A DNA stretch of 42,848 nucleotides, taken from assembly GCA_028281465.1 (NCBI GenBank), contig JANQJV010000086.1, positions 1-42,848 on the forward strand. The letters are read 5' to 3'. Positions 5,763-20,583 of the stretch are shown in pieces. The position numbers and the translations under genes were made by a program. Under the pieces are notes generated by a model. It ran no database searches. It was not told the DNA's origin and saw only the letters and a program-made list of their open reading frames with translations. Numbering within the stretch: position 1 is the first letter of the stretch; every line of letters begins with the position of its first letter. The DNA comes from Azospirillaceae bacterium. GTDB taxonomy: Bacteria; Pseudomonadota; Alphaproteobacteria; Azospirillales; Azospirillaceae.

Positions 5763-6254
5763 TGCAGCAGGCCGGCCCAGCCTGAGTTCGCGGTCGTTAG
5801 GCACGTAAGGACGCAATTGGGTGTCAGAGGGGCAAAAACGGGTGGCAGATCATAATAGTGCCGTAGGGATGACAGAATTCTTCGAGCCAAATCAATGGGG
5901 TGTAGGTTCAGCAAATCGTCATCTTGGGCCATTGCCACCCAATTGCCCCTCTTACGGACCTCGCATGTAATCCATTGAAATGATCTTACTTTTACAGATC
6001 GAAAAGCGATTGTAGCCGTTGCTATCGGGCGGCATGCTCTTATGTAATATCTTGTAGAACTTTAGAGGAACGAATGACGAGTGTCGCTGTCGCTCATGAA
6101 CGGGAGTCTTACGACGCATTGTACACGGCCGGACATGCGTTTACAGCCGCATCAAGCGTGATCTGATTGGCGGTGGTGGGAAACGACGCGCAATACCGAT
6201 CGATCCGGGCGCCGGCCATGCGCAGGCGCCCGGGGTGCCCAGCGTCAATTACCT
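5763..6254. other. Decayed intergenic sequence left of the phosphonate island
   Basis: No intact gene is visible. It holds one copy of a ~38-bp sequence that recurs at 19472-19509, then AT-richer sequence with no family resemblance, running into the IS1634-like 3' remnant. The base composition is lower in GC than the flanking genes. It looks like a graveyard of old insertions at the left edge of the phosphonate island. Confidence 0.55.
5780..5817. repeat. ~38-bp repeat, left copy
   Basis: The sequence CCTGAGTTCGCGGTCG followed by TTAGGCACGTAAGG, then A/G, CGCA, A/G, TTGG also occurs near 19472-19509, with only two differences. Read on the minus strand the matching frame gives QLRPYVPNDRELR in both copies, and both differences are synonymous. 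The copies diverge immediately on either side. I do not know the parent element. Confidence 0.75.
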
Positions 6255-6536
6255 TTGCCGGTTACCGACAACTACGGTTTCCGGTTTGGAGCGGCGGCGG
6301 TTGGGGGGAGCGAGGGGCGTAGCCCCGAGCGGACAACACCGCGCGCGGTCCTGGAATCGTTGTCGGCCGTCCAAATGGTCGACGTCCATATGCCCACGAC
6401 CGACGGCCGACAGGTCATTCTATCCCGATACACCCACCCCGAATCCGAAATCCAGATCCCGCTCCAACATCTCAAGCTCAAACTGCCGGCACAGCCGCCA
6501 CCCAAAATCACTCAACCGACCATCGTTTCAGCCTGA
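6255..6536 (+). pseudogene. IS1634-like transposase, C-terminal remnant
   Basis: An open frame of 93 codons whose second half (about residues 32-88) reads like the C-terminus of an IS1634-type transposase: a short helix (RAVLESLSAVQMV), a beta strand (DGRQVILSRYTHP), then a helix and a terminal LPAQPPPKI. The first ~30 residues (MPVTDNYGFRFG ...) do not fit and are probably unrelated junk upstream of the truncation. The catalytic core and N-terminus are missing. An N-terminal fragment of the same kind of transposase, in the same orientation, lies at 19598-20083 on the other side of the phosphonate island. Confidence 0.6.
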
Positions 6537-6675
6537 CCCGATAGACCGGCCTGTAGTGCCGACCAGAGGAGGATGATATGTGCTATATAAATTACTTAGA
6601 CTCAAACAAAATCTCGAATTGCGGAAGTCGGCCTAACGGCTGAACCCGGGGATCACAGCGGATCACGCGGCTCAC

Positions 6676-7326
6676 TCACCGGTCCGCAGGAGGCGGAATG
6701 GCCGCCGCAATCCGCCCAACCATGTCCTCCACAAGAACCGCCAAGGGCCGGTCGCCGTCGACCTCCATCCAGCCGAACCGGCGCGACCAGGCGTCCAGAT
6801 GGGCCTGGATTTGGCGCTGGTGAGACAGGAAGCTGTCGGAGCTGCACGTCTCGTCCATCCCGCATTCGTAGGCAACCCGGTCGTCCGGTTTTCGGGCAAG
6901 CAGGGTTTCGGGCGGAAGCTTGACGTACAGGGTGAGATCCGGCTGCGGCAACAGGCTCGCGGCGGCCAAGGCTGCCGCCTCCTCGGCGCCGAAGATGATC
7001 TCGGCGGCCGTGTGTTTCATCCAATAGCTGTCATGGATGAGGACGCAGTTGGGCGGGCCGTCCTTCAGCTGACTTGCGGTCGCGATGGCGATGGACCACA
7101 GGATGAACAAAAGGCGCGACTGTGCCGCAGGCATCGCCATGACGCTTTGCCTGACGGTGAGGACGTCGGTCTTGATGAAAGCCGACGCGGGCGAAAGCTT
7201 TGGGTCGAGGATGTCGAAGCGGTCGAGGCGCACCGCATGAATCCCCCGCGCGCGCAACGCATCCCGCAGGGCCCAGCTGAGCGTGGTTTTTCCCGCGCCA
7301 TCAGGCCCAGCGACAGCAATCAGCAT
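6676..7326 (-). CDS. Thymidylate-kinase-like P-loop kinase
   Basis: A 216-residue P-loop protein. The Walker A motif GPDGAGKTT is at residues 8-16, directly after the first beta strand, as in thymidylate kinase and related nucleoside/nucleotide kinases. A DR(F/Y)-like site appears as HDSYW (about residue 103), followed by a helix and the strand DLTLYVKLPPETLLARK, the usual 'xxYLDVxPExxxxR' region. The C-terminal DGDRPLAVLVEDMVGRI matches the end of this fold. It is not the housekeeping tmk in obvious form (the TYNK/LID residues differ), and its place at the edge of the phosphonate island suggests a dedicated kinase acting on a small-molecule or nucleotide intermediate. It is divergent from the HprK-like gene, with about 130 bp between them, and has a fair AGGAAGG site upstream. 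Confidence 0.75.
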   Translation of the reverse strand: MLIAVAGPDGAGKTTLSWALRDALRARGIHAVRLDRFDILDPKLSPASAFIKTDVLTVRQSVMAMPAAQSRLLFILWSIAIATASQLKDGPPNCVLIHDSYWMKHTAAEIIFGAEEAAALAAASLLPQPDLTLYVKLPPETLLARKPDDRVAYECGMDETCSSDSFLSHQRQIQAHLDAWSRRFGWMEVDGDRPLAVLVEDMVGRIAAAIPPPADR

Positions 7327-7455
7327 GGTCTTTTGCCTTCCTGGCGTTGCGGCCGCGATCGACGAGTCCTCAATGAAAATCGGCTATTTTGCGGCACTTA
7401 CAATATATGCTAACATTGCACTGGTTCGTTGCAACCAGGATTTTGGCAGAAGCGG

Positions 7456-8595
7456 ATGGTCAAGCATCGGCGTATGGCTTCAGGCGACGCCCTCAGTCTT
7501 GAACGCTGGTGGGTGGTGCGCGGCCCCGTAGCGGTTTCCGTGGAATGCCCGAGGCCCGGCTTCGCCCCTCTCCTGCCCCATGTCCTTGGCAATCACGCGA
7601 CCCTGTCGCGCGACACCGGGGCACCGGCGGCATGGACCATCGCCATCACACCGATGCAGGACTATGCGCGGCAACGGGAACAGTTCGCCGCCAAGTTCCG
7701 GACCGATGCGGCCGATGGACTGTCGGACTACTGGCGCGGCGATTTCGAGATCCGACGACTGGGGCGATTCGGCGCTGCGTACGCCGTGCGCCACGTGGTG
7801 CCGTTCGAGGGGATCACCCTTTTCGAACCAACGTCTCGTCGCATCTCTTATATGTTGTCTGACAACGAGGCCCCCTATCTGCCCCACATTGAACATTTAG
7901 TCACCTACGTGATGCGCGTTGCGGGGTGGACGCAGAGGTTCGTGGACGTACACGCCGCTTTCGTGCGCTACCGTGGCAAGGGCGCTACGCTGATCGGCCC
8001 GCGTCAGGCGGGCAAGACCAGCCTCGCCATGCATTTGCTCGCTCGGGGTGGCGAGCTCCTGGGCAGCGACATGGCGCAGATCCGTCCCGGCGCAGACGGA
8101 CGCCTGGACGCCGTGTCCATTCCCCACCTCTGCCGCATCACCCGAGAAACGATTCAGGACAACACCGTCCTGGCGACGGTGATCGGCTCCGCATTCGACG
8201 GCAATCGCGACTACCGGGACGGACCGCTGTTTTCCTACGGAAAATACGAGATGTACGATCCGGCTCTCGAACGGGTCCTGGGCCGGCGCGTCGGCATTTC
8301 CGCCATGGCGCTGGACGCGGTCTTGTTTCCCCGTTTCGACCGGCAAGCCGAACGATCCTCCGTGGTGCCGGCAGAGTCTGGCGACGGTGCGCGCCGGCTC
8401 ATGGACAGCATCCGATTCGACCGTCCCCTGGCGGACTGGCTGCCGTTCGAGCTGTCCGATCGCGAGCGCGCCGAAGTGGGTTTGGAGCGGTGGTTGTCTC
8501 AGGATCGAGCATCGATTCCCGCTTTCGATGTCCACTTCGGCCGGGAGCCGTCGCTCGACTGGGAGAGGATCGACGCCGTTTTCGACGGTCTTTAG
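7456..8595 (+). CDS. HPr-kinase-like P-loop protein
   Basis: About 379 residues from the ATG at 7456 (other in-frame starts at 7429, TTG, and 7474). The middle of the protein has the layout of the HprK C-terminal kinase domain: a His before the loop (VHAAFV), a glycine turn, Walker A GPRQAGKTS (residues 181-189), a helix, then LLARGGELLGSDMAQI, equivalent to the HprK 'rGHxLVaDD' strand. The N-terminal ~165 residues are specific to this subgroup. HprK-like proteins without the phosphotransferase context occur in lasso-peptide and other RiPP clusters, where characterised ones phosphorylate the precursor peptide. Here a peptide gene and a nucleotidyltransferase with an RRE-like end lie next door, so peptide or small-molecule phosphorylation is the working inference. 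It converges with the minus-strand nucleotidyltransferase at 8674. Confidence 0.75.
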   Translation: MVKHRRMASGDALSLERWWVVRGPVAVSVECPRPGFAPLLPHVLGNHATLSRDTGAPAAWTIAITPMQDYARQREQFAAKFRTDAADGLSDYWRGDFEIRRLGRFGAAYAVRHVVPFEGITLFEPTSRRISYMLSDNEAPYLPHIEHLVTYVMRVAGWTQRFVDVHAAFVRYRGKGATLIGPRQAGKTSLAMHLLARGGELLGSDMAQIRPGADGRLDAVSIPHLCRITRETIQDNTVLATVIGSAFDGNRDYRDGPLFSYGKYEMYDPALERVLGRRVGISAMALDAVLFPRFDRQAERSSVVPAESGDGARRLMDSIRFDRPLADWLPFELSDRERAEVGLERWLSQDRASIPAFDVHFGREPSLDWERIDAVFDGL

Positions 8596-8673
8596 CATCG
8601 GCGCGCGCCTGGAGCATTTTATTTTTTCAGCAAATCGTCGTCGCAGATCGCCTCTATCTGCTCTGGAGTTGCT

Positions 8674-9813
8674 CTAGGCAGGAAGACTGAAGCCGGTCCG
8701 GCGGAGTTCGGCAGCAAACTGTTCCACCGATTCCACCGGCACGGTCTGCGGTTCGGCCTCGGTCATGCGCGCGGCCTCCTGCGCCGTGGTCACGTTATCG
8801 AACAGCATCATGAGCGCAAACTCGCCGAAGCTGAGGTGCAGGGTGTCACCTAAGTCGTTCAGGCGACCGACGGCGATGCCACTCTCCGTACGCATGAAAT
8901 CGACGTCGATATCAAGGAACGGCAATGCCGGCGCGGCCCGAGGAGCCGACGGCTCGGACCACTCATATCGCCGGGCGACCTCACGGCCACCGTGGATCAG
9001 AGTCTCTTCCGCCCAAAGGAAGACGGAACGGGCGAAGGTGGCGATCTTGCACGCATATTCAAGCGCCGCCGGGCCACTCGCCTCCGCAGGGGTTCGGTGC
9101 AGCCGCCACATGAGTTCGCTCGGCGTCAAACCGCAGGGACGCATCACCAACCGGCTTTCCCAATCGGCCGGCAGGAGGTCCAGCAGGCGTCTGCGCCACT
9201 TGGGCGTCGGATTGGTCAGGCGATATCCCGCCAGCAAGCCGTCTACAGCGTGGCCAAGCAAATCCTGAGCGGAAAAAACCAGGGACATGTTGTCGCCTTC
9301 CTCACGGTAGCCGGTCATGTCCACTTGCAAGGTTCTGGCCATATGGCGGGCGACGTGCAGCTTCAGGCGGGCCACGTCCTCGCACAACACCAATGTGCCG
9401 GCCGCATTCGGATCGGTCTCCGGCCAGAGTTGCCGGCCTGCCCCCAGGCGGTGCAGCAGCAGCAGTTCGTTCGCGGAAAAACTTGCCGGCAGCGACACCT
9501 CCCAAGGTCCCATAGCCCACTGCCTCAGGCGGGAGCATAACGCATCCAGCGGATCGGTCGGCGCGATCCTCAGGTCGACGATGCAGCGGCCGGCGACGAA
9601 CGACTGTACCTCGTCGGGGGACGCCCCGGCATGCTGGATGCCGGGCGTGACCAAAATAAGATCCACGTCCGACTTCCGGTTGCCGAGACCTTCCGCAAGG
9701 GAACCCACGGCCAAGAGACGGTCACCAGACTCCAGGGGCGTGATGGCGCGCACCCCGTCGACCACCTGGACGAGGTCCGCATCGTGAATGCGCAGAAAGG
9801 TCTCGATATCCAT
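8674..9813 (-). CDS. Nucleotidyltransferase with C-terminal PqqD/RRE-like domain
   Basis: A 379-residue protein. The N-terminal half carries the pol-beta nucleotidyltransferase signature: GS at residues 37-38, then D49-x-D51 (in GSLAEGLGNRKSDVDL) and a third carboxylate at D80 (IVDLRI). All three metal ligands are present, so it is probably active. The central part is helical. The last ~85 residues (from about 295: FLDIDVDFMRTESG, then a turn, LSFGEFALMMLF, TTAQEAARMTEAE, VPVESVEQFAAELRRTGF) follow the strand-strand-helix-helix-helix plan of PqqD-like peptide-binding (RRE) domains. That assignment is by pattern only. It is the third gene of a leftward operon, 38 bp after the diiron protein. 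Uncharacterised nucleotidyltransferases also accompany HprK-like kinases in lasso clusters, which fits the neighbourhood. Confidence 0.7.
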   Translation of the reverse strand: MDIETFLRIHDADLVQVVDGVRAITPLESGDRLLAVGSLAEGLGNRKSDVDLILVTPGIQHAGASPDEVQSFVAGRCIVDLRIAPTDPLDALCSRLRQWAMGPWEVSLPASFSANELLLLHRLGAGRQLWPETDPNAAGTLVLCEDVARLKLHVARHMARTLQVDMTGYREEGDNMSLVFSAQDLLGHAVDGLLAGYRLTNPTPKWRRRLLDLLPADWESRLVMRPCGLTPSELMWRLHRTPAEASGPAALEYACKIATFARSVFLWAEETLIHGGREVARRYEWSEPSAPRAAPALPFLDIDVDFMRTESGIAVGRLNDLGDTLHLSFGEFALMMLFDNVTTAQEAARMTEAEPQTVPVESVEQFAAELRRTGFSLPA

Positions 9814-9851
9814 GGTCGCTTCTGGCCGCCGGCCTTTTGGGATCGACGGGA

Positions 9852-10736
9852 TCAGGAGGCGTGAAAGGCCATCTGCGTGCTACCCGCCTTCGCCCGGCAC
9901 CAGTCGCGCTTGGCACAACATGCAAGGGAGCAGTCGAAAGCGTTGTCTCCAAGCTCTTCAAGCGTGATTTGGTTGAAGTTATGAAAGCGGCGCACGAACA
10001 GCCCCACCACCTTGCGGCGATCCAAATCACGCGCGCGGCGTTCGATGATCACAGCGGTGTAGCCGACATGCGCCAACTCGTCCCGCAAAAGACAGTCCTG
10101 GATGCTCTTGAGTGCCTCCCGGTTCTGCGGCGGGCAATGTAGTCCCAGCGCCTGCCGCTGCAGTACATGGTGGATCGTGGTCCGGATCTCCGCGATGTTC
10201 ATCTGCAGGAAATCGTCCATGGTCGGTTCCTTGGCATAAGGCGACCCCGGGACTGGGGTAAGCGTCTGGTGCATGGAGAACCCAGGTGACAACTGCCGCA
10301 ACTCCCGGCGAAATTCCGGCAATACGGAGCTGGGGAAAACGAGGTCCAGCATCGACAGATACATCAACGAATGCTTGGACTCGTCCACCGCGTGCTGCTT
10401 CAATTGCTCGCGTTCCCCGTCGTCGGCGAAGGCGGCAAGCGACCACAAGCGGCGAGAACCGTCACCCTCGCGTTCCGAATTGGTTATGAGAGACGTCGCC
10501 ATCCACTGCGTGTCCTTGGCGGAGTCGCGGTAGAGCGTGTCGTAAGGTGCGGTGTCGAAAGGCGGCGGCTCCAGCGCCAACGCCTCGGTCATGGCCCCGG
10601 TATAAGTGGGACACTTGCCAAGAGCGCCGAGCATCTCAAGGGAGAGCTCGGCGATCCTGGCGATCCTAGATCCATGGGCTTCCGACATCAGCGCGGCGCT
10701 AGCCCAATCCGCGATTCTGGTCGAGCGCTCGGGCAT
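9852..10736 (-). CDS. Ferritin-like diiron protein
   Basis: A 294-residue, mostly helical protein. Two E-x-x-H motifs, E119-SK-H122 (in VDESKHSL) and E220-LA-H223 (in RDELAHVGY), plus E183 (IAEIRTT) give the four-helix ligand set of ferritin-like diiron oxygenases; the remaining glutamate is probably E88 or E108. The family includes oxygenases and N-oxygenases such as AurF, and desaturases, so an oxidation of the peptide or of the phosphonate is plausible but unproven. The C-terminal 25 residues have four cysteines (C269, C273, C274, C280), which could bind a metal or form disulfides. It is the second gene of the leftward operon, 21 bp after the small peptide gene, with GGTGAGG upstream of its start. 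Confidence 0.75.
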   Translation of the reverse strand: MPERSTRIADWASAALMSEAHGSRIARIAELSLEMLGALGKCPTYTGAMTEALALEPPPFDTAPYDTLYRDSAKDTQWMATSLITNSEREGDGSRRLWSLAAFADDGEREQLKQHAVDESKHSLMYLSMLDLVFPSSVLPEFRRELRQLSPGFSMHQTLTPVPGSPYAKEPTMDDFLQMNIAEIRTTIHHVLQRQALGLHCPPQNREALKSIQDCLLRDELAHVGYTAVIIERRARDLDRRKVVGLFVRRFHNFNQITLEELGDNAFDCSLACCAKRDWCRAKAGSTQMAFHAS

Positions 10737-10757
10737 GTCGACCTCACCCAGGTTAAG

Positions 10758-10979
10758 TTAGTTGACGATCTGCGATTGCGGATCGAATGGAGAGTTAAAC
10801 GCAATGAAGGCCCTATCGGCTTTAGGGAACTTTTGTGCTACCTCATCTTCCGAGGCCTTATCGAGAATCAACTTGCCGTCCTTGATCCGACCGCTGAGGA
10901 CCAACCCCGTGCGATTGTCCGTTACTTCCTTGGCAGCGGCCGTCAGACGTTCGATTTCCTTTCCTTCAAGTGCACTCAT
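10758..10979 (-). CDS. 73-residue peptide, candidate RiPP precursor
   Basis: A short gene with a very strong ribosome binding site (GGAGTTAGGAG just before the ATG) at the head of the leftward operon. The first ~55 residues are charged and soluble (MSALEGKEIERLTAAAKEV, then GRIKDGKLILDKASEDE) like a leader peptide. The last ~18 residues change character: aromatic, proline- and amide-rich, ending FNSPFDPQSQIVN. There is no cysteine. I do not recognise a precursor family. The case for a modified peptide rests on context: a diiron enzyme and a nucleotidyltransferase with an RRE-like end are cotranscribed, and phosphonate enzymes with an AsnB homologue diverge from the same control region. Alternatively it could be a small NHase-like or stress protein subunit. 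Its codons look less GC-rich than those of the neighbours. Confidence 0.6.
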   Translation of the reverse strand: MSALEGKEIERLTAAAKEVTDNRTGLVLSGRIKDGKLILDKASEDEVAQKFPKADRAFIAFNSPFDPQSQIVN

Positions 10980-11007
10980 CTCCTAACTCCTTGTTTTCTG
11001 AGGTTTT

Positions 11008-11037
11008 GTGAGCATATTGCACAGCAATAATGCTCAC
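11008..11037 (-). promoter_or_regulatory. Long inverted repeat in the 5' region of the peptide operon
   Basis: Outer arms GTGAGCAT and ATGCTCAC (8 bp) and inner arms ATTGC and GCAAT (5 bp) pair perfectly around a 3-base loop, with a single unpaired A. It ends 29 bases upstream of the peptide start codon, so on the minus strand it could be an operator or a hairpin in the 5' untranslated RNA. No T run follows, so it is not a standard terminator. Confidence 0.6.
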
Positions 11038-11064
11038 ATCTTGTAGTTAACAGAAGTTGGTCTA

Positions 11065-11084
11065 TCATGAAATTTTCGTCATGA
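11065..11084. promoter_or_regulatory. Paired TCATGA half-sites
   Basis: Two TCATGA hexamers separated by 8 bases make an approximate palindrome. Spacing and position, between the two operons, are compatible with a dimeric regulator binding site. This is inference from symmetry alone. Confidence 0.3.
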
Positions 11085-11381
11085 CAAGGCCTATAAGATA
11101 CTAAATTGCAAAGAAATATCATTATTAATTAAATCAGAACAGATCTCAATTGGGGTTGGATTGAATTATCAATTAAGCCAATATGGATATCAATCAGAAT
11201 ACAATAGGCTATCATCCCATGGATTAGTATACGCCGGCGGGCCTCGGCGATCTCCGGATCGCCGTCCCAGGGCGGCTAATGTCGCTGCAAACAAGGATTT
11301 TTTTCCATATCGGGTGAGGCGACGGACAGTTTGTCATTCAACATCGCGTTCCGTACCGACAATTTTTTCGCTTTCAGTGCA

Positions 11382-11417
11382 TTGTACCTGTACAAAAGCA
11401 GGATTTGCGTTATAATA
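11382..11417 (+). promoter_or_regulatory. Promoter and overlapping operator of the phosphonate operon
   Basis: A consensus -10 box TATAAT (11412-11417) lies 17 bp after TGTACA (11389-11394), a four-of-six match to the -35 consensus, about 30 bp before the aepX start. The -35 region is embedded in a perfect palindrome TTGTACCTGTACAA (11382-11395), which a repressor or activator dimer could occupy. Confidence 0.65.
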
Positions 11418-11446
11418 GGTGTTTCTACACATGGCGGTGAACTGGC

Positions 11447-12742
11447 ATGGGCAAGACGGTTTATGTCCGGGCAGAAGATGATGTGCAGGGTGCACCGTTC
11501 TGCACTCGCGTGGCCACGGCTCGACAATATGGCGACGTCGTGGTGGGTATCGTGACCGATCGGGCTCTGGCCCAAGTCAACCGGCCTGCCCGGCTCGACT
11601 TCGAGGGGCGGCAGCGCATCGTCCTGCAGATGGACGGCGTTGCGCGGGTCGTGGCGCAGGAGGACTTTGATGGTTTAGACACCTTGCGGCGTCTCCAACC
11701 TGACGTTTACGTCTGCGATCTTGATGATGGCGTGGCCAGAAACCCGGGCCTTTTCCTCGCGTCGGCCGGCGAGTGGCAGGGCGAGGTGATCGCCGCGAGC
11801 CAAGGCCCGGCGGGTTCGGAAGTGTGCCAGGTGCTGGACATCGGTTTCGGTGTGACGCCGGCTTTTCGCCTTCGCCAGCTCCGCCGCCTGCTTACCTATT
11901 CCGGCCTGGTTCGCACCATGGAGGTGCACAGCCCGCTTTGTGGCATCATCATTGAGACCGCCGCTGCCGAGCGAGACGGTCAGATGATCGGCTTCGACGC
12001 CATGTGGTCTTCAAGCCTCACCGACGCCACCGTGCGCGGCAAACCCGACAACGAAGTGGTCGACCACAGCACCCGTCTGGCCGGGCTGAACGAACTGTTC
12101 GACGTGACCACGAAGCCAATGCTGTATGACGCCGACACAGGCGGAAAGCCCGAGCATTTCGCTTACACGGTCCGCTCACTGGAGCGCTTGGGCGTCTCGG
12201 CGGTCGTGATCGAGGACAAGATCGGTTTGAAGCGCAATTCCCTGTTGGGCGAGCGCCCCGGCCAGGAACAGGAAAGCATCGACAACTTCTGCCATAAAAT
12301 CAGCACCGGAAAGGCCGCGCAGGCGACCAAGGACTTCGCGGTGATCGGCCGCATCGAAAGCCTGATCCTGAACGCCGGGCTGGAGGATGCGCTTGAACGC
12401 GCCCGCGCTTACGCAAATGCCGGTGCCGACGGGCTCATGATCCACAGCCGCAGCAAGGAGCCGGAGGAGATTTTTTCCTTCTGCAACCGGTTCCGGCGTA
12501 CCGACGGAACCACCGCTCTCGTGGTGGCGCCCACCAGTTACAGCGGCGTCCGTGAAAGCGAACTCCAGGCGCATGGCGTGAACGTCGTGATCTACGCCAA
12601 CCATCTTCTGCGCGCCGCCTACCCGGCCATGCTGAATGCGGCCCAAACCATTCTGGCGCATGGACGCTGCCGAGAGGCGGAGGCGCTATGCATGCCGGTC
12701 GACGCCTTGCTGCGGCTCATTCCGCAGACGTCAGAGCCGTGA
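11447..12742 (+). CDS. aepX: Phosphoenolpyruvate mutase with N-terminal cytidylyltransferase-like domain
   Basis: A 431-residue protein catalysing the committing step of phosphonate synthesis, PEP to phosphonopyruvate, forming the C-P bond. The mutase domain spans about residues 150-430: WSSSLTD (187-193), DADTGGKPEHF (228-238), the diagnostic PEP mutase motif EDKIGLKRNS (256-265) and MIHSRSKEP (331-339). The EDK...NS signature separates it from isocitrate lyase and other superfamily members. The N-terminal ~130 residues align in layout with the cytidylyltransferase-like domain fused to some PEP mutases (KTVYVRAED, GDVVVGIVTDRA, LRRLQPDVYVCDLDDG), but the HxGH nucleotide-binding motif is absent (GAPFCTRV), so that domain is probably inactive. 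First gene of the rightward operon; its stop overlaps the GTG start of aepY. Confidence 0.95.
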   Translation: MGKTVYVRAEDDVQGAPFCTRVATARQYGDVVVGIVTDRALAQVNRPARLDFEGRQRIVLQMDGVARVVAQEDFDGLDTLRRLQPDVYVCDLDDGVARNPGLFLASAGEWQGEVIAASQGPAGSEVCQVLDIGFGVTPAFRLRQLRRLLTYSGLVRTMEVHSPLCGIIIETAAAERDGQMIGFDAMWSSSLTDATVRGKPDNEVVDHSTRLAGLNELFDVTTKPMLYDADTGGKPEHFAYTVRSLERLGVSAVVIEDKIGLKRNSLLGERPGQEQESIDNFCHKISTGKAAQATKDFAVIGRIESLILNAGLEDALERARAYANAGADGLMIHSRSKEPEEIFSFCNRFRRTDGTTALVVAPTSYSGVRESELQAHGVNVVIYANHLLRAAYPAMLNAAQTILAHGRCREAEALCMPVDALLRLIPQTSEP

Positions 12743-13887
12743 TCGTCGCCCGGGCGTTCCTGACTGCCTTGCAGGCGGTGGGCGTACGCTTCTTCACGGG
12801 CGTGCCCGACTCGACCTTGAAGGCGTTCTGCCGGGTTCTTGAAGCCGATATCCCCTCCGACCGGCATGTCGTCGCCGCCAATGAGGGCACCGCCGTTGCC
12901 CTGGCGGCCGGACACTATCTTGCCACCGGGGCCGTCGGCTGCGTCTATATGCAGAATTCCGGTCTCGGCAACGCCGCCAATCCGCTGATATCACTGAATG
13001 CACCAGAGGTCTACGGCATTCCGGTGCTGTTGGTCGTCGGATGGCGCGGCGAGATGGCGGATGGTGTGCAGCTCCGCGACGAGCCCCAGCATGCGATGCA
13101 AGGACGGATCACGCTGTCCATGCTGGACGGCCTCGAGATCGAGCACGTCGTGCTGGGGCCGCGGGATTCGGACCCCGAGGGGATGATACGCGATTTGGTC
13201 GAGCGCGGCCGTTCGCGATCCCGTCCGGTCGCACTCGTCGTGCGACGCGGCTTGCTCGACGGTGCAGGACCCCGGACGCCGATCACGGTAGCGGAGCCGG
13301 CCGTGACACGCGAAGCCGCAGTGGCGCAAGCTCTGGACGCGTTGCCGCCGGAGGCCCTGTGCGTCGCCACCACAGGGAAAGTTGCGCGGGAACTCTACGC
13401 GTATCGGCAGCGCCACGGCACCGACCCCCGGCGCGACTTCCTGATGGTAGGATCCATGGGACACGCGGTTCAGATCGCAGCCGGCGTCGCCTTGGCCCGA
13501 CCCGACCGGCAAGTGGTCTGCATCGACGGCGACGGGGCGATGATTATGCACATGGGCGGTCTGACCACGAGTGCCATCGTACCCAACCTCCTGCATCTGG
13601 TCATGAACAACGGCACCCATGAATCCACCGGCGGAGCCGCGAGCCGGGGCTTTGCCATCGACATGCCGGGTATCGCGCGGGCCTGCGGCTACGCCTTCGC
13701 AGCCCGGGTTGACAGCCTCGGCGAGGTCGCACCAACGGTGCGGCGGGCACTGAAGACGAGCGGGGCATCCTTCCTGGAAATCCGGGTCGCGGCGCGTTCC
13801 CGGCCGGACCTGCCGCGTCCCGAGGGCACGCCCGCCGATGCGAAGCGCATCTTCATGGCCCGGCTCCTGGGCGATGCCGTCGCATGA
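12739..13887 (+). CDS. aepY: Phosphonopyruvate decarboxylase
   Basis: A 382-residue thiamine-diphosphate enzyme that decarboxylates phosphonopyruvate to phosphonoacetaldehyde and so pulls the unfavourable mutase reaction forward. The family opening FFTGVPDSTLKAF is near residues 18-30, ANEGTAVALAAG gives the catalytic Glu region, and the ThDP/Mg motif starts with GDGAMIMHMGG at about 264 and ends with MNN near 290, followed by GTHESTGG. The GTG at 12739 is preferred: it overlaps the aepX stop as GTGA, and the family starts just before this point. An ATG at 12688 would add 17 residues that do not fit. Two motif-complete enzymes in tandem make the phosphonate assignment secure. Confidence 0.95.
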   Translation: MIVARAFLTALQAVGVRFFTGVPDSTLKAFCRVLEADIPSDRHVVAANEGTAVALAAGHYLATGAVGCVYMQNSGLGNAANPLISLNAPEVYGIPVLLVVGWRGEMADGVQLRDEPQHAMQGRITLSMLDGLEIEHVVLGPRDSDPEGMIRDLVERGRSRSRPVALVVRRGLLDGAGPRTPITVAEPAVTREAAVAQALDALPPEALCVATTGKVARELYAYRQRHGTDPRRDFLMVGSMGHAVQIAAGVALARPDRQVVCIDGDGAMIMHMGGLTTSAIVPNLLHLVMNNGTHESTGGAASRGFAIDMPGIARACGYAFAARVDSLGEVAPTVRRALKTSGASFLEIRVAARSRPDLPRPEGTPADAKRIFMARLLGDAVA

Positions 13888-15029
13888 CCGGCGCTTCCGG
13901 CCTGCAGGGCGGCATCGCGCCGGACGCAGCCGCATTCGATCTCGGTCGTCTCGCCGACGCCCTTGGTGAGGTCGGGTTTGGTGAGTATGTTGCTGACCTC
14001 GATCTCCACCGGCCCCGACGCGGCGACTGGGAGCGCCATCGCGACGACGCTCCGAGAGACCTGCAGCCCCTGATCGATCTCTTCCTGTTGGCACGAGGCG
14101 TGGATCCGGAGGCCTTGGACCCTCGGTTCGGGAGCCTGCTTCGCGGGCTGGAGGATCTCGGCCTGGCGATCCGGGGCGACCGGGATATTGCCATGGCGGG
14201 CGGCCTGGTTGTCGTACCGGTCTTCGGTCGCTGGTTGATGTGCCACGCACCGCAACCGAACACCCGGTTCTACTTCGGCGATGACACCGTGGCGCTCCTG
14301 ACGCGCCTCACGCCTCCGGCCGGCGGGCGATGCCTCGACCTTTGCAGCGGGCCGGGCATGCTCGCGCTGCACGCGGCGGGAATTGCGGATGAGGTGGTTG
14401 CGGTGGAACGGACGGCGGTGGCGGCGCAGCTCGCCCGCATGAACCTGCGTCTCAATCGGCTGGAGCACAGGGTCAGGGTATACGAAGGAGACCTCTACGC
14501 GCCGGTTCAGGGCGAGACCTTTGACTTTGTCGTCGCAAACCCGCCGATGCTCCCCGTCCCGCCGGGCCTGGACGGTGGCCCGATCGGGCTTGGCGGGACG
14601 GACGGGTTCCGGCTGACCCGGCGGATTCTGGCCGGCCTCCCCGCGGCATTGCGGCCTGGAGGCGTGGCCCAGATCATCGGTCTGTCGCTCAGCGACGGCA
14701 CCACCCCCCTTGGAATCGAGCACCTTACGGATGCGGCGAGCGGCCATTTTGACCTGACCGTCAGCATCTTGTCTCACGTCTCCGCCGATGCCGGGACGGC
14801 CTGTTTCGACGCTTTGGCAGCGACGATCGCTCAAATTTCAGGCACGGAGATCACTCGCGTCCGCAGGGCATGCCGCACACATCTGCAGCAGTCGGGAGCG
14901 ACCGGGCTCTGCCACCTCTTCATCCATGCTCGCCATCGGCGGGGCGAGGGACCGGGACGCCTCGCGGTGATCGACGTCTCGTCCACCAACCGTGAACGCG
15001 ACTGGCGTTGGAGGGGATATGCACCCTGA
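13884..15029 (+). CDS. Class I SAM-dependent methyltransferase
   Basis: A 381-residue protein starting in an ATGA overlap with the aepY stop. The SAM-binding motif I is LDLCSGPGML (151-160), motif II ends in VVAVER (about 171-176), and VVANPPM (216-222) is the NPPY-type motif seen in methyltransferases acting on planar amide or amino nitrogen (HemK/PrmC and RsmC-like groups). The N-terminal ~140 residues form an extra domain, as in RsmC/RlmG or PrmC relatives. In this operon an N-methylation of an amide, amine or peptide group of the phosphonate product is the natural guess, but substrate cannot be read from the sequence. O-methylation is not excluded. Translational coupling to aepY and to the dioxygenase ties it firmly to the pathway. 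Confidence 0.8.
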   Translation: MTGASGLQGGIAPDAAAFDLGRLADALGEVGFGEYVADLDLHRPRRGDWERHRDDAPRDLQPLIDLFLLARGVDPEALDPRFGSLLRGLEDLGLAIRGDRDIAMAGGLVVVPVFGRWLMCHAPQPNTRFYFGDDTVALLTRLTPPAGGRCLDLCSGPGMLALHAAGIADEVVAVERTAVAAQLARMNLRLNRLEHRVRVYEGDLYAPVQGETFDFVVANPPMLPVPPGLDGGPIGLGGTDGFRLTRRILAGLPAALRPGGVAQIIGLSLSDGTTPLGIEHLTDAASGHFDLTVSILSHVSADAGTACFDALAATIAQISGTEITRVRRACRTHLQQSGATGLCHLFIHARHRRGEGPGRLAVIDVSSTNRERDWRWRGYAP

Positions 15030-16047
15030 AGCACTGGGGCCGGGGACCCGCCCCCCGCGCCTTTCCAAACCAATCGGTGATCCTGACGGTGCCTGGGGAA
15101 CCGGTGGCAAAAATGTGATCCTGCCGATCCCGACGGATGTGCTGGAAGAGCTGGAGCGCCATCGCCCGCTTCTGGACGCAGCCGTGCCCCCGCACGGCAT
15201 GACGGTGGACAACACGCCGCTGCCCGCGCTTCGGCAGCATGCGGCAGAACTTCTCAGGACGCGCTTGGACGCCAGACTCGGCTTTATCATTCTGCGGGGA
15301 ATCGAGTCGACCCGCTTCCCGCCGCCAGCGGCTGAGAACATCTTTTGGCGGTTTTGTGCCGCGCTCGGCGATCCCCTGGCGCAGCGGGGGGATGGGATCC
15401 GCTTCGGCCGCGTTGCGAACCTCGGCCTGCCGGCCTCGGCCCGCCCCCGTTACCACGAGACCGGAGTCGGAGGTTCGGTGCACACAGATAGCCCGATCAT
15501 GGCCGAGGTGGCCGATTTGGTGGGCCTTCTGTGCATTCGGGGGGCTGCGGCAGGCGGAGAGAGCAAGTTCGTCAGCGTCGCCCGCGTCCATGACATCCTC
15601 TTGTCCCATGCCGAAGACCTGCTGGCAGAGCTTTACGAACCGTTTTTCTTCGACCGCAGGGTCAAACCGGAAGACGTTTCGCCGTCCAACCCGGCCGTGT
15701 TGCAGGCGCCGATCTTCACCTACGATCCAACCCTTGGCACGCGCGGACTCAGGCTGCGGTGGCAACCGGAATACGTGTGGGAGGCTCCCGGGTTGCCGGA
15801 CGTGCCGGCCCTCGGCGAACGGCAGCAGCTTGCACTGCATCTGCTCGAAGGCGTGCTTGAGGATCGCGCGGACGCCATTACCCTGCGGGTGCGCATGCAG
15901 CCTGGTGACATGCAGTTCCTCAACAATCACACGGTTGCGCACGGCCGCACTCCGTTCCTCGACGATCCTGGAGGCATGGAGGGCGCCGGCCCCAACCCAT
16001 CGACGCGCAGGGAGATGCGCCGCGTCTGGTTGCGCCGCCGTTGCTGA
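15019..16047 (+). CDS. TauD/TfdA-like Fe(II)/2-oxoglutarate dioxygenase
   Basis: About 342 residues from the ATG at 15019, which has GGAG five bases upstream and overlaps the methyltransferase end by 11 bp; a GTG at 14992 would add nine residues. The iron ligands are visible: H155-x-D157 (in VHTDSP) and the distal His in NNHTVAHGRTPF (H308), followed by the 2-oxoglutarate-binding Arg in the terminal RREMRRVWLRR. The NNHxxxHGR form and C-terminal WLR are typical of the TauD/TfdA superfamily, as in TfdA-like enzymes of phosphonate pathways. It probably hydroxylates or oxidatively cleaves a carbon of the phosphonate or its conjugate. In other phosphonate clusters such enzymes hydroxylate the carbon next to phosphorus. 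Confidence 0.88.
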   Translation: MHPEALGPGTRPPRLSKPIGDPDGAWGTGGKNVILPIPTDVLEELERHRPLLDAAVPPHGMTVDNTPLPALRQHAAELLRTRLDARLGFIILRGIESTRFPPPAAENIFWRFCAALGDPLAQRGDGIRFGRVANLGLPASARPRYHETGVGGSVHTDSPIMAEVADLVGLLCIRGAAAGGESKFVSVARVHDILLSHAEDLLAELYEPFFFDRRVKPEDVSPSNPAVLQAPIFTYDPTLGTRGLRLRWQPEYVWEAPGLPDVPALGERQQLALHLLEGVLEDRADAITLRVRMQPGDMQFLNNHTVAHGRTPFLDDPGGMEGAGPNPSTRREMRRVWLRRRC

Positions 16048-16107
16048 GTCCACCTCCCCAATCCGTAGCGTCTCCCCCAGGTACCGAAAATAGAGCCGGA
16101 TCATGCA

Positions 16108-16803
16108 ATGCAAGCCTTGATTCTCGCCGCGGGATGCGGATCACGCCTCAAGGCCGTCACCGAGGGTCGGCCCAAGGGCCTTGTCGACGTCGGCGGCACG
16201 GCGTTACTCGATCGCCAGATCGCGACGCTCGCCGCAGCCGGCATCCGACGAATCTGCCTCGTGACCGGCTACGAACACGCCCAGTTGGAACAGCGGTTCG
16301 GCCAACGGGTCGAATACCGCCACAATCCGTTTTTCCAACAGTCGAACAACCTGGTGAGCTTCCTTTTTGCCCGGGACTGGATCCGGGAGGGTTCCCTGGT
16401 CCTGTACGCCGACCTTCTATATGGCCCGGACATTCTGGAGCTCGCGTTGGCGGCGCAGGGCGACGTCAGCCTCCTGGTCGATCGGTCGGCCGTGGTGCCG
16501 GGGCACGCGCTCGTATCCATGGAAGGAAACCTTGTGCGCAGGATCGGACGAGACCTGCCAGGAAAGACTACCGACGCGCGCTTCATCGGTATCGCCCGTT
16601 TTTCCCAGCGGGGTCTGGACGCCTTCCTGCCAGAACTGGAGACGGCGGCCAAGGCTGGCCAACTCGATCAATACTACACGGTTGGCGTGGACGCCCTTGC
16701 GGCGCGGGGTTATCCCGTGGAAGCCGTGGAGGTGGACGGCAAAGCATGGCTGGAGATTGACACCCCCGAGGATCTCCGAAACGCACGAGAAACGTGGGGT
16801 TAG
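16108..16803 (+). CDS. NTP-transferase-type nucleotidyltransferase
   Basis: A 231-residue single-domain protein of the sugar-phosphate nucleotidyltransferase fold. The signature LAAGCGSRL with PKGLVDVGG (residues 6-30) binds the nucleotide; LDRQIATLAAAGI, then VTGYEHAQL and the metal-binding Asp in VLYADLLYG (about 98-106) follow the LicC/PntC-like plan. Family members make CDP-choline (LicC) or CMP-aminoethylphosphonate (PntC), and others make NDP-sugars. Next to aepX/aepY, activation of a phosphonate as its CMP ester is the leading inference. It lies 60 bp after the dioxygenase and only 2 bp before the asparagine synthetase homologue. Confidence 0.85.
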   Translation: MQALILAAGCGSRLKAVTEGRPKGLVDVGGTALLDRQIATLAAAGIRRICLVTGYEHAQLEQRFGQRVEYRHNPFFQQSNNLVSFLFARDWIREGSLVLYADLLYGPDILELALAAQGDVSLLVDRSAVVPGHALVSMEGNLVRRIGRDLPGKTTDARFIGIARFSQRGLDAFLPELETAAKAGQLDQYYTVGVDALAARGYPVEAVEVDGKAWLEIDTPEDLRNARETWG

Positions 16804-16805
16804 CC

Positions 16806-18734
16806 ATGTGCGGCGTCTTCGGGGTGGCCTCCGTCGATCCCTTGACCGAGTCGCGCGACGTCCTGGAGGGGCTGACCGACAGACTGGCGCACCGCGGCCC
16901 CGACGATCGCGGCACACACGCCGGGCCAGCGGTTTTCCTCGGCCATCGGCGTTTGTCGATCCTGGATCTGGCGGGCGGGCGGCAACCCATGAGCACCGCC
17001 GATGGGCGCCATATCATCGTCTACAATGGCGAACTCTACAACTTCCGGGAGATCAGGGCCGCGTTGGAGGAACGCGGACGTAGCTTTCTCACCGATTGCG
17101 ACACGGAAGTGGTGCTACTGGCCTACCGTGAGTGGGGCGTCGACTGTCTGGCCAAGCTCCGCGGCATGTTCGCCTTCGCTGTCTGGGACGTAGCGCAACG
17201 AACGCTGTTCCTGGCCCGCGACCGGCTCGGTATCAAGCCGCTCTATTACGCCCTGATCGGCCGGCGCCTGGTGTTCGCTTCCGAGATGAAGGCGATTACC
17301 GGCCATCCCGATTTCCGCTGCTCGGCCAATCTTGAGGCACTATCGAGCTATCTCAGCTTCCGGACTGTGATCGGCGACCGCACCGTGTTTGAAGGGGTGA
17401 GAACCTTGCCGCCCGGATGCTGTCTCGTTTACGCGAATGGAACGGTCAGCCTGCGGTGCTACTGGGATGTCCCATGCCCGGCGGTCCGAAAGGATCGGGG
17501 CGAGGCCTTCTATCTTGAACATCTGCGCGGCATGCTGCCGCAAATCGTCAAAAGCCATATGGTCAGCGACGTGGCGCTTGGCGCCTACCTCAGCGGTGGG
17601 GTCGACTCCAGTCTGCTTGTCGCCCTGATGGCCGGTCTGCAGTCCGGACCGGTAAGAACCTACTCGGTCGGTTTCGACGTCCCCGGTTACGACGAGGGCG
17701 ACCACGCCGAAATGGTCAGCCGGCATCTGGGGACGAGGCACGACCGCCTGGTGATCAGTGCCGCAGGCTTTCTCGATTCAATGGACGCGATGATCAGGCA
17801 TCGCGACCAGCCGCTGTCCATTCCGCACGAGCCTGCACTCTTGGCCCTCTCCCACCATCTGCGCCGGGACGTCACCGTCTGCCTGTCCGGCGAAGGAGCG
17901 GATGAACTGTTCGGCGGTTACGGGCGGGTCCAACGCTCGCCCATGGACCTTCGCAAGGTCAGACTTTTCAACGCGCTGCCGCGACCACTCCGGGAGATAA
18001 TCCGGGCGTTGGCAAAGGCTCCGGAGGTTCGCAGGCGCCTGGACCTCACGGACGACGTCGAGCACTTCCTGCATGTCTACCACTGGTGGCCGATGGACGA
18101 GAAGTCGGGACTCCTTAGCCGCGAGACGCGGGAGACGCTGCGGGAAGACGAGGCCTTGCGCCGGCAATGTCGTGGCATATTTTCGAACTGTGGCAGCGCC
18201 GATCCCTATGATCGGGTATTGTATTTCTTCGAAAAGGTCCACTTGGCCAACCTCCTGGACCGGCTCGACGTGCAGAGTATGACCGCCTCCGTCGAGGCAC
18301 GCGTTCCATTCGTCGACCACGAGCTGGTGGAATTCGTTAGCGCGATCCCCTTGCACTATAAGATGCGGTGGAAGTCACCGCTACACATGCTTTGTGCTGC
18401 ATTCGTGACCAGCGAAGCGGCGAGCGAGGTTCTGGACACGAGTAAATACCTTCTGCGCAAGCTCGCCGATGAACGGCTGCCAAGGTCGATATCCCACCGT
18501 CGCAAGCTCGGCTTTCCAGCACCTCTCGACGTGTGGCTCGGCGGACCGCTGCGGGCTCGGGCGCGAGAGATATTGCTCGACCCAGTTACACGCCGACGCG
18601 GCCTGTTCGATATGGCGGTCCTTGACCGCCTCCTCGGCGCGGAACCCCACCTGCGCTATGACTTCTTCGGCAAACGTATCTGGATGCTGATGAACGTCGA
18701 ACTCTGGTTCAGGGCCCACATCGACCGAAGCTGA
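16806..18734 (+). CDS. asnB: Glutamine-dependent asparagine synthetase homologue
   Basis: A 642-residue AsnB-type amidotransferase. The start at 16806 is fixed by MCG, which gives Cys2 as the glutaminase nucleophile after Met removal; the class II glutaminase domain continues to about residue 210 (AHRGPDD, YNGELYNF, SFLTDCDTE, GMFAFAVWD). The ATP pyrophosphatase domain has SGGVDSS at about 263-269 and GEGADELFGGYGR. Both active sites are intact, so it should make an amide from glutamine ammonia. As last gene of the phosphonate operon it may amidate a carboxylate of the product, or couple an amine, rather than make free asparagine. Lasso cyclases share the fold but lack Cys2 and function without glutaminase activity, so this is not one. 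Genes of this family also occur in capsule and exopolysaccharide loci. Confidence 0.9.
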   Translation: MCGVFGVASVDPLTESRDVLEGLTDRLAHRGPDDRGTHAGPAVFLGHRRLSILDLAGGRQPMSTADGRHIIVYNGELYNFREIRAALEERGRSFLTDCDTEVVLLAYREWGVDCLAKLRGMFAFAVWDVAQRTLFLARDRLGIKPLYYALIGRRLVFASEMKAITGHPDFRCSANLEALSSYLSFRTVIGDRTVFEGVRTLPPGCCLVYANGTVSLRCYWDVPCPAVRKDRGEAFYLEHLRGMLPQIVKSHMVSDVALGAYLSGGVDSSLLVALMAGLQSGPVRTYSVGFDVPGYDEGDHAEMVSRHLGTRHDRLVISAAGFLDSMDAMIRHRDQPLSIPHEPALLALSHHLRRDVTVCLSGEGADELFGGYGRVQRSPMDLRKVRLFNALPRPLREIIRALAKAPEVRRRLDLTDDVEHFLHVYHWWPMDEKSGLLSRETRETLREDEALRRQCRGIFSNCGSADPYDRVLYFFEKVHLANLLDRLDVQSMTASVEARVPFVDHELVEFVSAIPLHYKMRWKSPLHMLCAAFVTSEAASEVLDTSKYLLRKLADERLPRSISHRRKLGFPAPLDVWLGGPLRARAREILLDPVTRRRGLFDMAVLDRLLGAEPHLRYDFFGKRIWMLMNVELWFRAHIDRS

Positions 18735-19597
18735 TCCGAACGGTCAGCCTGCGGCCGCCGATCCTCGCCTCCTGGGTGTCACTCCGGCCTCACGGCTTTC
18801 TTGACGCCCAGAATAGTCATAACGGACCTTCCCGAGAAAAATCAGAAAATTGGCTGATTCCCTTGAGTTTGGGTCGATTTTAGTGGCTATCCGGTCACTA
18901 ATTCGATTCGTCTCGAAGGGTTTGCTGTTACTTGCGCAGAGCTTCCATAGGCCTTAAGTAAGACTTCGGAACATTTACGGAGGTCTGTAGTCACAACGCA
19001 CTGCATTATTTTTTATTTAAGCCGTTGATTTTCTTGGATACCTCTGCGCCGTTGGCGGGAAGGTCCGTCATAATCAACGAAATCATCGGCAGGTCCCCCC
19101 CCGATGGCCCATGCGGCCCAATTTGATGACCGTGTTTTTGAAGCGGGCGCCCTACCCCGACTTCCGCGATTCAGGTTGTCGATCGTCCGCTTTGACGAAT
19201 ATTTGGGTTGCGAGATCGGCAGAAAGGCTTTGTCGTCATCGTCGCCTTGTCTCCAGAACGGCTTGTAGTGCCAACCCACCCGGTTGACCTCGTCGGGGGT
19301 TCAGCAGGACTCTGGGTCATGTTTCTGCGATCCAAGACACGCCGCAAGGACGCAAGGTTCACCGGACCTGGAGCATCGTCGAGCCGACGCGTACGCGGTA
19401 ACCGGATCGTTCAAAAGCAAGTTCTTTACCTCGGTGAGATCAACGACAGCCAGCAGACAGCTTGGCCTGAGTTCGCGGTCGTTAGGCACGTAAGGGCGCA
19501 GTTGGACATGGTAAGTCTTTGTTATAAAACAATCTGACTCTTTGAGCAACCACCGAAACACCGACAAACCTAGGCACACGATAATCCTTCGTAAGCT
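18735..19597. other. Decayed intergenic sequence right of the phosphonate island
   Basis: About 860 bp with no convincing gene. GC content falls, stops are frequent in all frames, and the second copy of the ~38-bp repeat lies near its end. It mirrors the gene-poor stretch at 5763-6254 on the left side of the island. Confidence 0.55.
19472..19509. repeat. ~38-bp repeat, right copy
   Basis: Partner of the sequence at 5780-5817, same orientation, two differences. It lies about 90 bp upstream of the IS1634-like N-terminal remnant. Confidence 0.75.
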
Positions 19598-20083
19598 TTG
19601 ACTCTGATGAAAACCCAGGCATTGATCCTGGGCATGTACTTACGCATCACCAAACGCCACAACCGCGATGGCTCCACGGTCACCGACGACGCCCTGGCCG
19701 AGACGGTTTGGAACGCGGCGGCCAAGCGTGCCGATGCCAAGGTCATCCATCGCTTTGGCCGCGCCGATCAGCTCGACCATGATGCGCTCAAGCGGCTGGT
19801 GTGCAGCATCAGCCGCGTTCTGGATGCTGAAGAAGCACCGCAGACTGCCGGCGCGACGCTTATCGATGCCAAGGCCGAGCCGACGCTGCCGGAGATTGAG
19901 ATCGACCGCGTGTACGATCTCGGGATCGTTCTGGCAGCGCGGTCGTTGTGGGAACAGCTTGGCATCGGCGATGCCGTCCGGTCATGCCTGGCCAAGGCTG
20001 GGTTGTCGGCGCCCCATGAAGCGGCCGTGTTGGCCCGACTTCCGCAATTCGCATGGCCGAAGAGGATCAAGTGGTTGATTTGA
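19598..20083 (+). pseudogene. IS1634-like transposase, N-terminal remnant
   Basis: A 161-codon frame whose first ~145 residues read as the N-terminus of an IS1634-type transposase: MYLRITKRHNRDGS, then VIHRFGRADQLDHDALKRLVCSI and a helical part ending LSAPHEAAVLA (the usual place where the catalytic domain begins). After about 20035 the frame continues into unrelated sequence (RLPQFAWPKRIKWLI) and stops, so more than two thirds of the protein is missing. The natural start is probably MYLRI at 19634. It is in the same orientation as the C-terminal remnant at 6255-6536. Confidence 0.75.
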
Positions 20084-20583
20084 TTAAGGCGTATACCCAA
20101 AGTCGGCTCTCCCCACCCCTAGATCCACCATCGTTGCTTGTTGCATCCGCGTACGTAGCTGTGTGGCAAGCACCGGAAAGTCTCAGCTGAAAGGCATGCG
20201 TGATCCCGTTCGCACCTTCAGTATGGTTCTGCTGGCAGTATGGTTCTGGCAGTATGGTTCTGGCAGTATGGTTCTGGCAGTATGGTTCTGAACAGATGTA
20301 TGCGCATCCAGTTATCGAAATAGGAGGAGGCGCTCGAGAGCATCAAGCGTACAGGTCGGCACGATACGCCCACCCGACCAGCCAACACTCCAGAGAGACA
20401 AACAAACCCGCCAACTCGTCTCATCAGATCACCCGAAGTTTCCCGGTATCCACGGCGAATTGCGGAAACCGGGCTAGACACCGCGAACACAGGCCTGGGC
20501 CCCGACGCTCCCGCCCGCACGGACATGCGGGTCCGCCTCGATCGGCCTCGCCGACCTTCGACCAATCCCTTGCGGCAGTTGTG
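20084..20583. other. Intergenic region with a 14-bp tandem repeat
   Basis: Apart from the minisatellite at 20219-20289, I see no supported gene between the transposase remnant and the 3' end of the TPR/glycosyltransferase-like gene. Confidence 0.5.
20219..20289. repeat. 14-bp tandem repeat, four full units plus one partial
   Basis: Units of GGCAGTATGGTTCT repeated perfectly four times (20234-20289), preceded by a 12-base partial copy and a 3-base interruption. The perfect identity points to recent expansion. It lies in non-coding sequence and has no spacers. Confidence 0.9.

Follow-up and report, generated by a model that had tools for sequence, protein, structure and literature searches.

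What might a short peptide gene be doing beside genes for phosphonate biosynthesis? The question is raised by a contig of an Azospirillaceae bacterium (the window, 42,848 nucleotides), in which genes for a 73-residue peptide, a diiron enzyme and a nucleotidyltransferase (NT) form a minus-strand operon at 8674-10979. The first-pass annotation had described a three-gene operon headed by the peptide gene and diverging from phosphonate genes, and this layout was confirmed, with the open reading frames at the coordinates listed below. The diiron gene starts 21 bp beyond the peptide gene and the NT gene 38 bp beyond the diiron gene; the peptide frame has an ATG start with TTAGGAG upstream, a strong ribosome binding site. 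The answer favored here, with a probability of about 0.6, is an undescribed RiPP route working together with phosphonate biosynthesis. The features concerned are:

6676..7326, minus strand: thymidylate-kinase-like P-loop kinase, an open reading frame with a homologue in the Rhizobium gene set
7429..8595, plus strand: HprK-related P-loop kinase (putative N-terminal start)
8674..9813, minus strand: pol-beta NT, 379 aa; ANT/KNT-like in residues 1-275, with an RRE/PqqD-like domain at about residues 297-379
9852..10736, minus strand: ferritin-like diiron oxygenase/oxidase, 294 aa; E90-x28-E119-x2-H122 ... E183-x36-E220-x2-H223, and a Cys-rich C-terminal tail
10758..10979, minus strand: predicted precursor peptide, 73 aa; core DRAFIAFNSPFDPQSQIVN; invariant F58, A60, N62, P64 and F65
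11007..11038, no strand: inverted repeat TGTGAGCAT-N14-ATGCTCACA, in the spacer of the divergent operons, close 5' of the peptide gene
11447..12742, plus strand: PEP mutase; EDKIGLKRNS motif; 384.8 bits against a cutoff of 319.55 (TIGR02320)
12688..13887, plus strand: phosphonopyruvate decarboxylase; 425.6 bits against a cutoff of 312.5
13884..15029, plus strand: HemK/PrmC-like N-methyltransferase; NPPM motif; in Nocardia and Saccharothrix, part of a fusion with the NT
14992..16047, plus strand: Fe(II)/2-oxoglutarate (TauD) dioxygenase; HTD motif
16108..16803, plus strand: LicC/PntC-like CTP:phosphonate cytidylyltransferase; homologue annotated as phosphocholine cytidylyltransferase family
16806..18734, plus strand: asparagine-synthase-like amidotransferase (AsnB) with an intact N-terminal Cys

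The two kinase genes lie on the opposite side of the operon from the phosphonate series. The divergent operons are separated by 467 bp of AT-richer DNA (GC 0.42), in which the inverted repeat is a possible operator for both; no regulator gene is conserved together with the cluster, and an Rfam search of 6000-20500 gave no match. Just outside the cluster lies a perfect 14-bp tandem repeat (CTGGCAGTATGGTT, 4.2 copies, 20232-20290). All 11 genes of 6676-18734 could be assigned, and none is a leader protease or a dedicated exporter. PADLOC returned nothing for the peptide/diiron/NT trio, and a PHROGs search nothing significant.

A short peptide with an Asn-centred core

The peptide has no significant relative in Pfam, NCBIfam, PHROGs or the PDB, and a profile built from its family found no credible relative in the PDB either. 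An alignment of 11 peptides shows conservation of G30, G35, F58, A60, N62, P64 and F65, the most conserved stretch being the C-terminal F-x-A-x-N-[S/A]-P-F, which is the reverse of the conserved leader and variable tail that had been expected at first; inside a lineage the tail is nearly invariant. The strict motif [F/Y]xAxN[A/S]PF occurs in 13 of the 2,975 small open reading frames of the loci, and all 13 are diiron-associated peptides. Two Rhizobium peptides (L003 and L004) differ at codon position 3 in 30 places compared to 12 at positions 1 and 2. Peptide length across the family ranges from 47 to about 89 aa.

In some relatives the core is multiplied. The peptide of a Pseudoduganella MAG (L017:9766-9996) carries four tandem F-x-A-C-N-A-[P/A]-F cores (NFIACNAPFVACNAPFTACNAAFTACNAPF); there the diiron gene lies downstream of the peptide gene and is followed by a methyltransferase gene, and phosphonate genes were not found nearby. 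Two distant Burkholderiaceae peptides contain three GAFxIRN[HY]xF repeats each and have a distant diiron homologue and a JmjC protein as neighbours. YRAWNAHF is found in the peptide of another actinobacterium. The distant Burkholderiaceae peptides (L072:7555-8028 and L073:7993-8262) and one from a Dolichospermum plasmid (L005:15489-15704), all of the form F-x-I-R-N-x-x-[F/L], make up a distant branch of the family, in which peptide, diiron homologue and JmjC protein form a three-gene row. In the Dolichospermum peptide FAIRNHTL follows a leader with a weak likeness to class I lanthipeptide leaders, and a diiron homologue adjoins.

An invariant Asn with flanking aromatic residues, multiplied in tandem, is expected of modification sites. 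The locus has the general features of a RiPP, a short gene-encoded precursor beside modifying enzymes, and the family adds those of a RiPP core, namely conserved and repeated candidate sites (the tandem cores of L017 and L072/L073, and the 13 strict motifs). Judged from these sequences, the best reading of the peptide is that of a RiPP precursor whose core, [F/Y]-x-[A/I]-x-N-x-x-[F/L], is centred on Asn.

The diiron enzyme, the nucleotidyltransferase and the tailoring enzymes

The diiron homologues share two invariant E...(D)ExxH motifs (E90 and (D)E119xxH122; E183 and (D)E220xxH223), and these lie in a helical bundle, as is characteristic of diiron carboxylate proteins. The AlphaFold model (mean pLDDT 86.8) was matched by VIA-align to an ADO-like protein (Z 13.6), MiaE (13.2), UndA (12.4) and VlmB (12.4), a broad ferritin/HDO-like set with tied Z scores that does not reveal the exact subfamily or chemistry. 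Foldseek with the model alone gave no match at E <= 0.001, the diiron profile found nothing in the PDB, and neither Pfam nor NCBIfam has a model for the family; AurF (PF11583) does not match the window protein, and the homologue in L073 reaches 17.1 bits with a cutoff of 29.6. The C-terminus of the enzyme (window 9852-9948) has a C-x3-CC-x5-C pattern that is also present in the Rhizobium, Nocardia, Saccharothrix and Rhodobacterales enzymes and absent in those of Burkholderia, Shewanella and the loci with NIS synthetases; it is possibly a metal site.

The NT is catalytically intact, with a GS-x10-DxD motif and a third Asp that are all invariant among homologues, and its fold resembles aminoglycoside nucleotidyltransferases (Foldseek 2e-5 to ANT-4''; VIA Z 9.3 to LinB). 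The last 80 residues are predicted to form three strands followed by three helices, the order of RRE/PqqD, and the AF2 model places strands at 304-327 and helices at 329-372 with a pLDDT of about 60-66; the VIA rows span residues 1-303 and barely cover this domain. Its comparison with a PqqD profile by hhalign was weak (score 20.6, probability 16.5%; maximum of shuffled controls 14.6), and it has no Pfam PqqD match. Of the fusion of an intact NT with a peptide-binding domain suggested earlier, the intact NT and the topology thus stand, while the PqqD similarity is weak. In two Rhizobium loci (L004:16901-17965 and L008:10907-11950) the RRE-like domain is truncated after the first helix.

PEP mutase, scoring above the TIGR02320 cutoff and bearing the EDKx5NS motif, is the marker of phosphonate biosynthesis in the gene set. 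Its 145-residue N-terminal extension (11447-11880) resembles a cytidylyltransferase-like domain without the HxGH motif, an extension that the Rhizobium PEP mutase annotated in L003 does not have. AsnB scores 451.7 bits against the asparagine synthase cutoff of 267.1. The HprK-related kinase reaches 13.9 bits with the HPr-rel-A kinase model TIGR04352, whose cutoff is 200. HemK/PrmC-type methyltransferases with an NPP motif methylate glutamine side chains. The peptide end FD[PA]xSQ is present at every locus bearing the methyltransferase and at none without it (a small sample, with kinship ignored), and as the SQ tail tracks the methyltransferase, Gln70 is its likely substrate. Moreover, a single open frame encodes both the NT and the methyltransferase in Nocardia and Saccharothrix, which links the methyltransferase to the NT and the peptide.

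Distribution of the family and its phosphonate neighbours

A single-protein search of 398 genomes of the phylum with the diiron sequence found the window alone, and profile and plasmid searches were needed. In plasmid searches, Rhizobium plasmids were found to carry the trio with its gene order unchanged. The remaining eight genes (PEP mutase, phosphonopyruvate decarboxylase, cytidylyltransferase, dioxygenase, AsnB, methyltransferase and the two kinases) lie around it there at 31-58% identity, in a different order and orientation, so that 11 genes are common to Rhizobium and the window. Scanning GTDB genomes with a profile of the diiron family located 11 loci, spread over Actinobacteria and Alpha-, Beta- and Gammaproteobacteria. 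Besides Rhizobium, the trio is present in Nocardia, Saccharothrix, Burkholderia and a Rhodobacterales bacterium; Shewanella has the peptide and NT genes directly before PEP mutase, with the diiron gene 11 kb further on. In most of the loci found a peptide homologue directly precedes the diiron homologue, which indicates a pairing beyond chance. The distribution is sporadic (2 to 3 matches per roughly 345 genomes, in three families), as expected of horizontally moving biosynthetic genes.

In four separate lineages, those of the window, Rhizobium, Nocardia and Shewanella, PEP mutase and peptide are no more than about 13 kb apart, against a base rate of 5% (15 of 299 genomes of the phylum above cutoff). 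In Saccharothrix the decarboxylase is inside the peptide cluster and PEP mutase elsewhere, and the Nocardia and Saccharothrix loci have no cytidylyltransferase. Gene-content conservation of this kind strongly suggests that the putative RiPP family is coupled to phosphonate genes. Burkholderia has the trio and the methyltransferase with no phosphonate gene beside them, its PEP mutase being on another contig in what looks like a cluster for phosphonolipid synthesis, and the Rhodobacterales genome with the trio has no PEP mutase above cutoff. Phosphonate is therefore dispensable for some family members: the peptide-diiron-NT unit has its own role, to which phosphonate is an addition in some lineages. 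The acid-activating enzyme varies as well, being AsnB in the window and Rhizobium, an ATP-grasp enzyme in Nocardia, and an NIS synthetase in Sphingomonas, Chromobacterium and an actinobacterial MAG. In these last three (L014, L015 and L016) peptide and diiron genes are followed by the IucA/IucC NIS synthetase gene, possibly for a metallophore-like RiPP; Sphingomonas L014 also has a radical SAM/SPASM gene (540 bits to TIGR03913, cutoff 592). Rhodobacterales L011 holds a second RiPP-like set (15901-18159; radical SAM/SPASM with a PqqD part and a discrete PqqD protein) about 5 kb from its peptide-diiron-NT-kinase operon.

Other arrangements of the same facts were considered. The peptide could be a scaffold or carrier, on whose conserved C-terminus a small phosphonate or amino-acid metabolite is built and cut off before the peptide is recycled, so that the final product would be a small molecule, by analogy with the logic of PEARL/3-thiaglutamate or LysW carriers. 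Such a role would suit a tail that exceeds the rest in conservation, where most peptide antibiotics have variable cores, and the presence of kinases, AsnB or ATP-grasp enzymes and NIS synthetases with no protease or exporter; however, the assigned genes include no peptide aminoacyl-tRNA ligase and tandem cores are more typical of RiPP precursors freed as several products, and we regard a carrier as unlikely, if a serious contender. Strict pairing with the diiron gene and an N-terminal half that looks foldable from its sequence would also fit a small effector or regulatory subunit, MmoB-type-like, of a diiron oxygenase acting on a small phosphonate. This seems improbable given a peptide length that varies from one relative to another, the core repeated in tandem in two lineages, the RiPP-type partners (JmjC, rSAM/SPASM) or leaders at other loci, and several family members without phosphonate genes.

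The window might also hold two unrelated neighbouring pathways, a RiPP operon and a phosphonate operon making a surface decoration. LicC/PntC-type genes usually serve surface tailoring (PMC6697681), and the Burkholderia and Rhodobacterales trios stand without adjacent phosphonate genes, but chance neighbours are hard to reconcile with 11 of 11 genes common to the window and Rhizobium despite their shuffled order, with PEP mutase near the peptide in four lineages against the low base rate, or with a Saccharothrix decarboxylase that stays in the peptide cluster although PEP mutase is elsewhere; this is the explanation to which we give least credence. A RiPP route working with phosphonate biosynthesis is thus preferred. 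Of the earlier suggestion of a ribosomal peptide modified with nucleotide and/or phosphonate chemistry, there is good support for a modified peptide whose pathway also takes in the phosphonate genes, because the gene set is conserved despite shuffling, the cores are repeated in tandem and the NT is fused to the methyltransferase; that a nucleotide or phosphonate ends up on the peptide is the inferential part.

Proposed pathway and comparison with known systems

Starting from a precursor, a peptide-diiron pairing and a coupling to phosphonate genes that comparison of sequences supports, we infer every modification, its site and the order of steps as follows. The 73-aa precursor would be recognised via its N-terminal part, and the family-specific diiron enzyme would oxidise F-x-A-x-N-[S/A]-P-F, with the invariant Asn or its neighbourhood as the likeliest site. 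Phosphonoacetaldehyde would come from PEP mutase and the decarboxylase, and from it the dioxygenase, AsnB and the LicC/PntC-like cytidylyltransferase would make a tailored CMP-activated phosphonate. The NT, held to the leader by its C-terminal RRE-like domain, could then transfer a phosphonyl or nucleotidyl group to a peptide hydroxyl, e.g., that of the Ser in the SQ tail; methylation of the tail Gln would probably fall to the HemK-like methyltransferase, the kinases may phosphorylate the peptide and/or the donor, and a host protease would release the product. Transfer of this kind is suggested by analogy: LicC-like cytidylyltransferases encoded near PEP mutase convert phosphonates to activated CMP conjugates (PMC6697681), and a Ser of lasso peptides is decorated by an HprK-like kinase together with an NTP transferase (PMC9266682; PMC13381572). 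That the product is the first natural phosphonate-RiPP hybrid, made by a leader-guided NT-fold enzyme moving a CMP-activated C-P unit onto an Asn-core peptide oxidised by a new family of diiron oxygenase, is a tentative proposal with somewhat less than even odds.

Phosphonates occur as small bioactive metabolites or as decorations of surfaces; RiPPs are encoded by genes and easily re-engineered. In the literature searched (CC-licensed PMC papers), no pathway joining phosphonates and RiPPs, or a ribosomal peptide and PEP mutase, is described, nor a ferritin-like diiron enzyme with a ribosomal peptide, nor the NAPF motif. The occurrence of the peptide-diiron pair also without phosphonate genes, beside NIS synthetases, JmjC or radical-SAM enzymes, points to a wider RiPP family, which the pair appears to define with a portable core motif and its oxygenase family. 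The peptide-diiron family is probably an undescribed RiPP family, and the hybrid phosphonate product remains a proposal.

Among known enzymes, AurF, ADO, MiaE and VlmB have the two E...(D)ExxH motifs in common with the window enzyme, which differs from them in being encoded with a peptide, in its Cys-rich tail and in lacking a Pfam or NCBIfam model. Paeninodin/pseudomycoidin-type lasso systems, which combine a kinase and an NTP transferase with an RRE and an AsnB-like cyclase, likewise have a short precursor accompanied by an HprK-like kinase, a nucleotidyltransferase and an enzyme of the asparagine synthase family; there the C-terminal Ser is phosphorylated by PsmK, after which PsmN adds a hexose (PMC9266682). 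A lasso peptide was rejected, as AsnB scores 222.7 against the lasso cyclase cutoff of 525 and leader peptidase B2 is absent among the 11 assigned genes (6676-18734); unlike lasso systems, the window adds a diiron enzyme, a methyltransferase and phosphonate genes, and the glutaminase Cys of AsnB is intact. Linear polyphosphorylated peptides (LPP, PMC13381572) also share the HprK-like kinase and the NTP transferase, and have an RRE, to which the RRE-like domain of the window NT may correspond. They were rejected because the SpI-like peptidase and the MsbA-like transporter are absent among the assigned genes of 6676-18734; the window precursor differs further in having no YxxPxVLxHQ leader motif and in its added diiron and phosphonate genes. 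In the nitrilobacillin pathway (PMC13060819) an asparagine-synthetase-like enzyme acts on a RiPP precursor as well, with MNIO and alphaKG-HExxH enzymes in place of the window diiron family and no phosphonate genes reported. Finally, Pnt clusters with PntC (PMC6697681) share PEP mutase, often fused to a cytidylyltransferase-like domain as it may be in the window, and a LicC-like cytidylyltransferase from which a CMP-activated phosphonate is expected; unlike them, the window cluster has no aminotransferase, and the proposed acceptor is a ribosomal peptide rather than a glycan or lipid.
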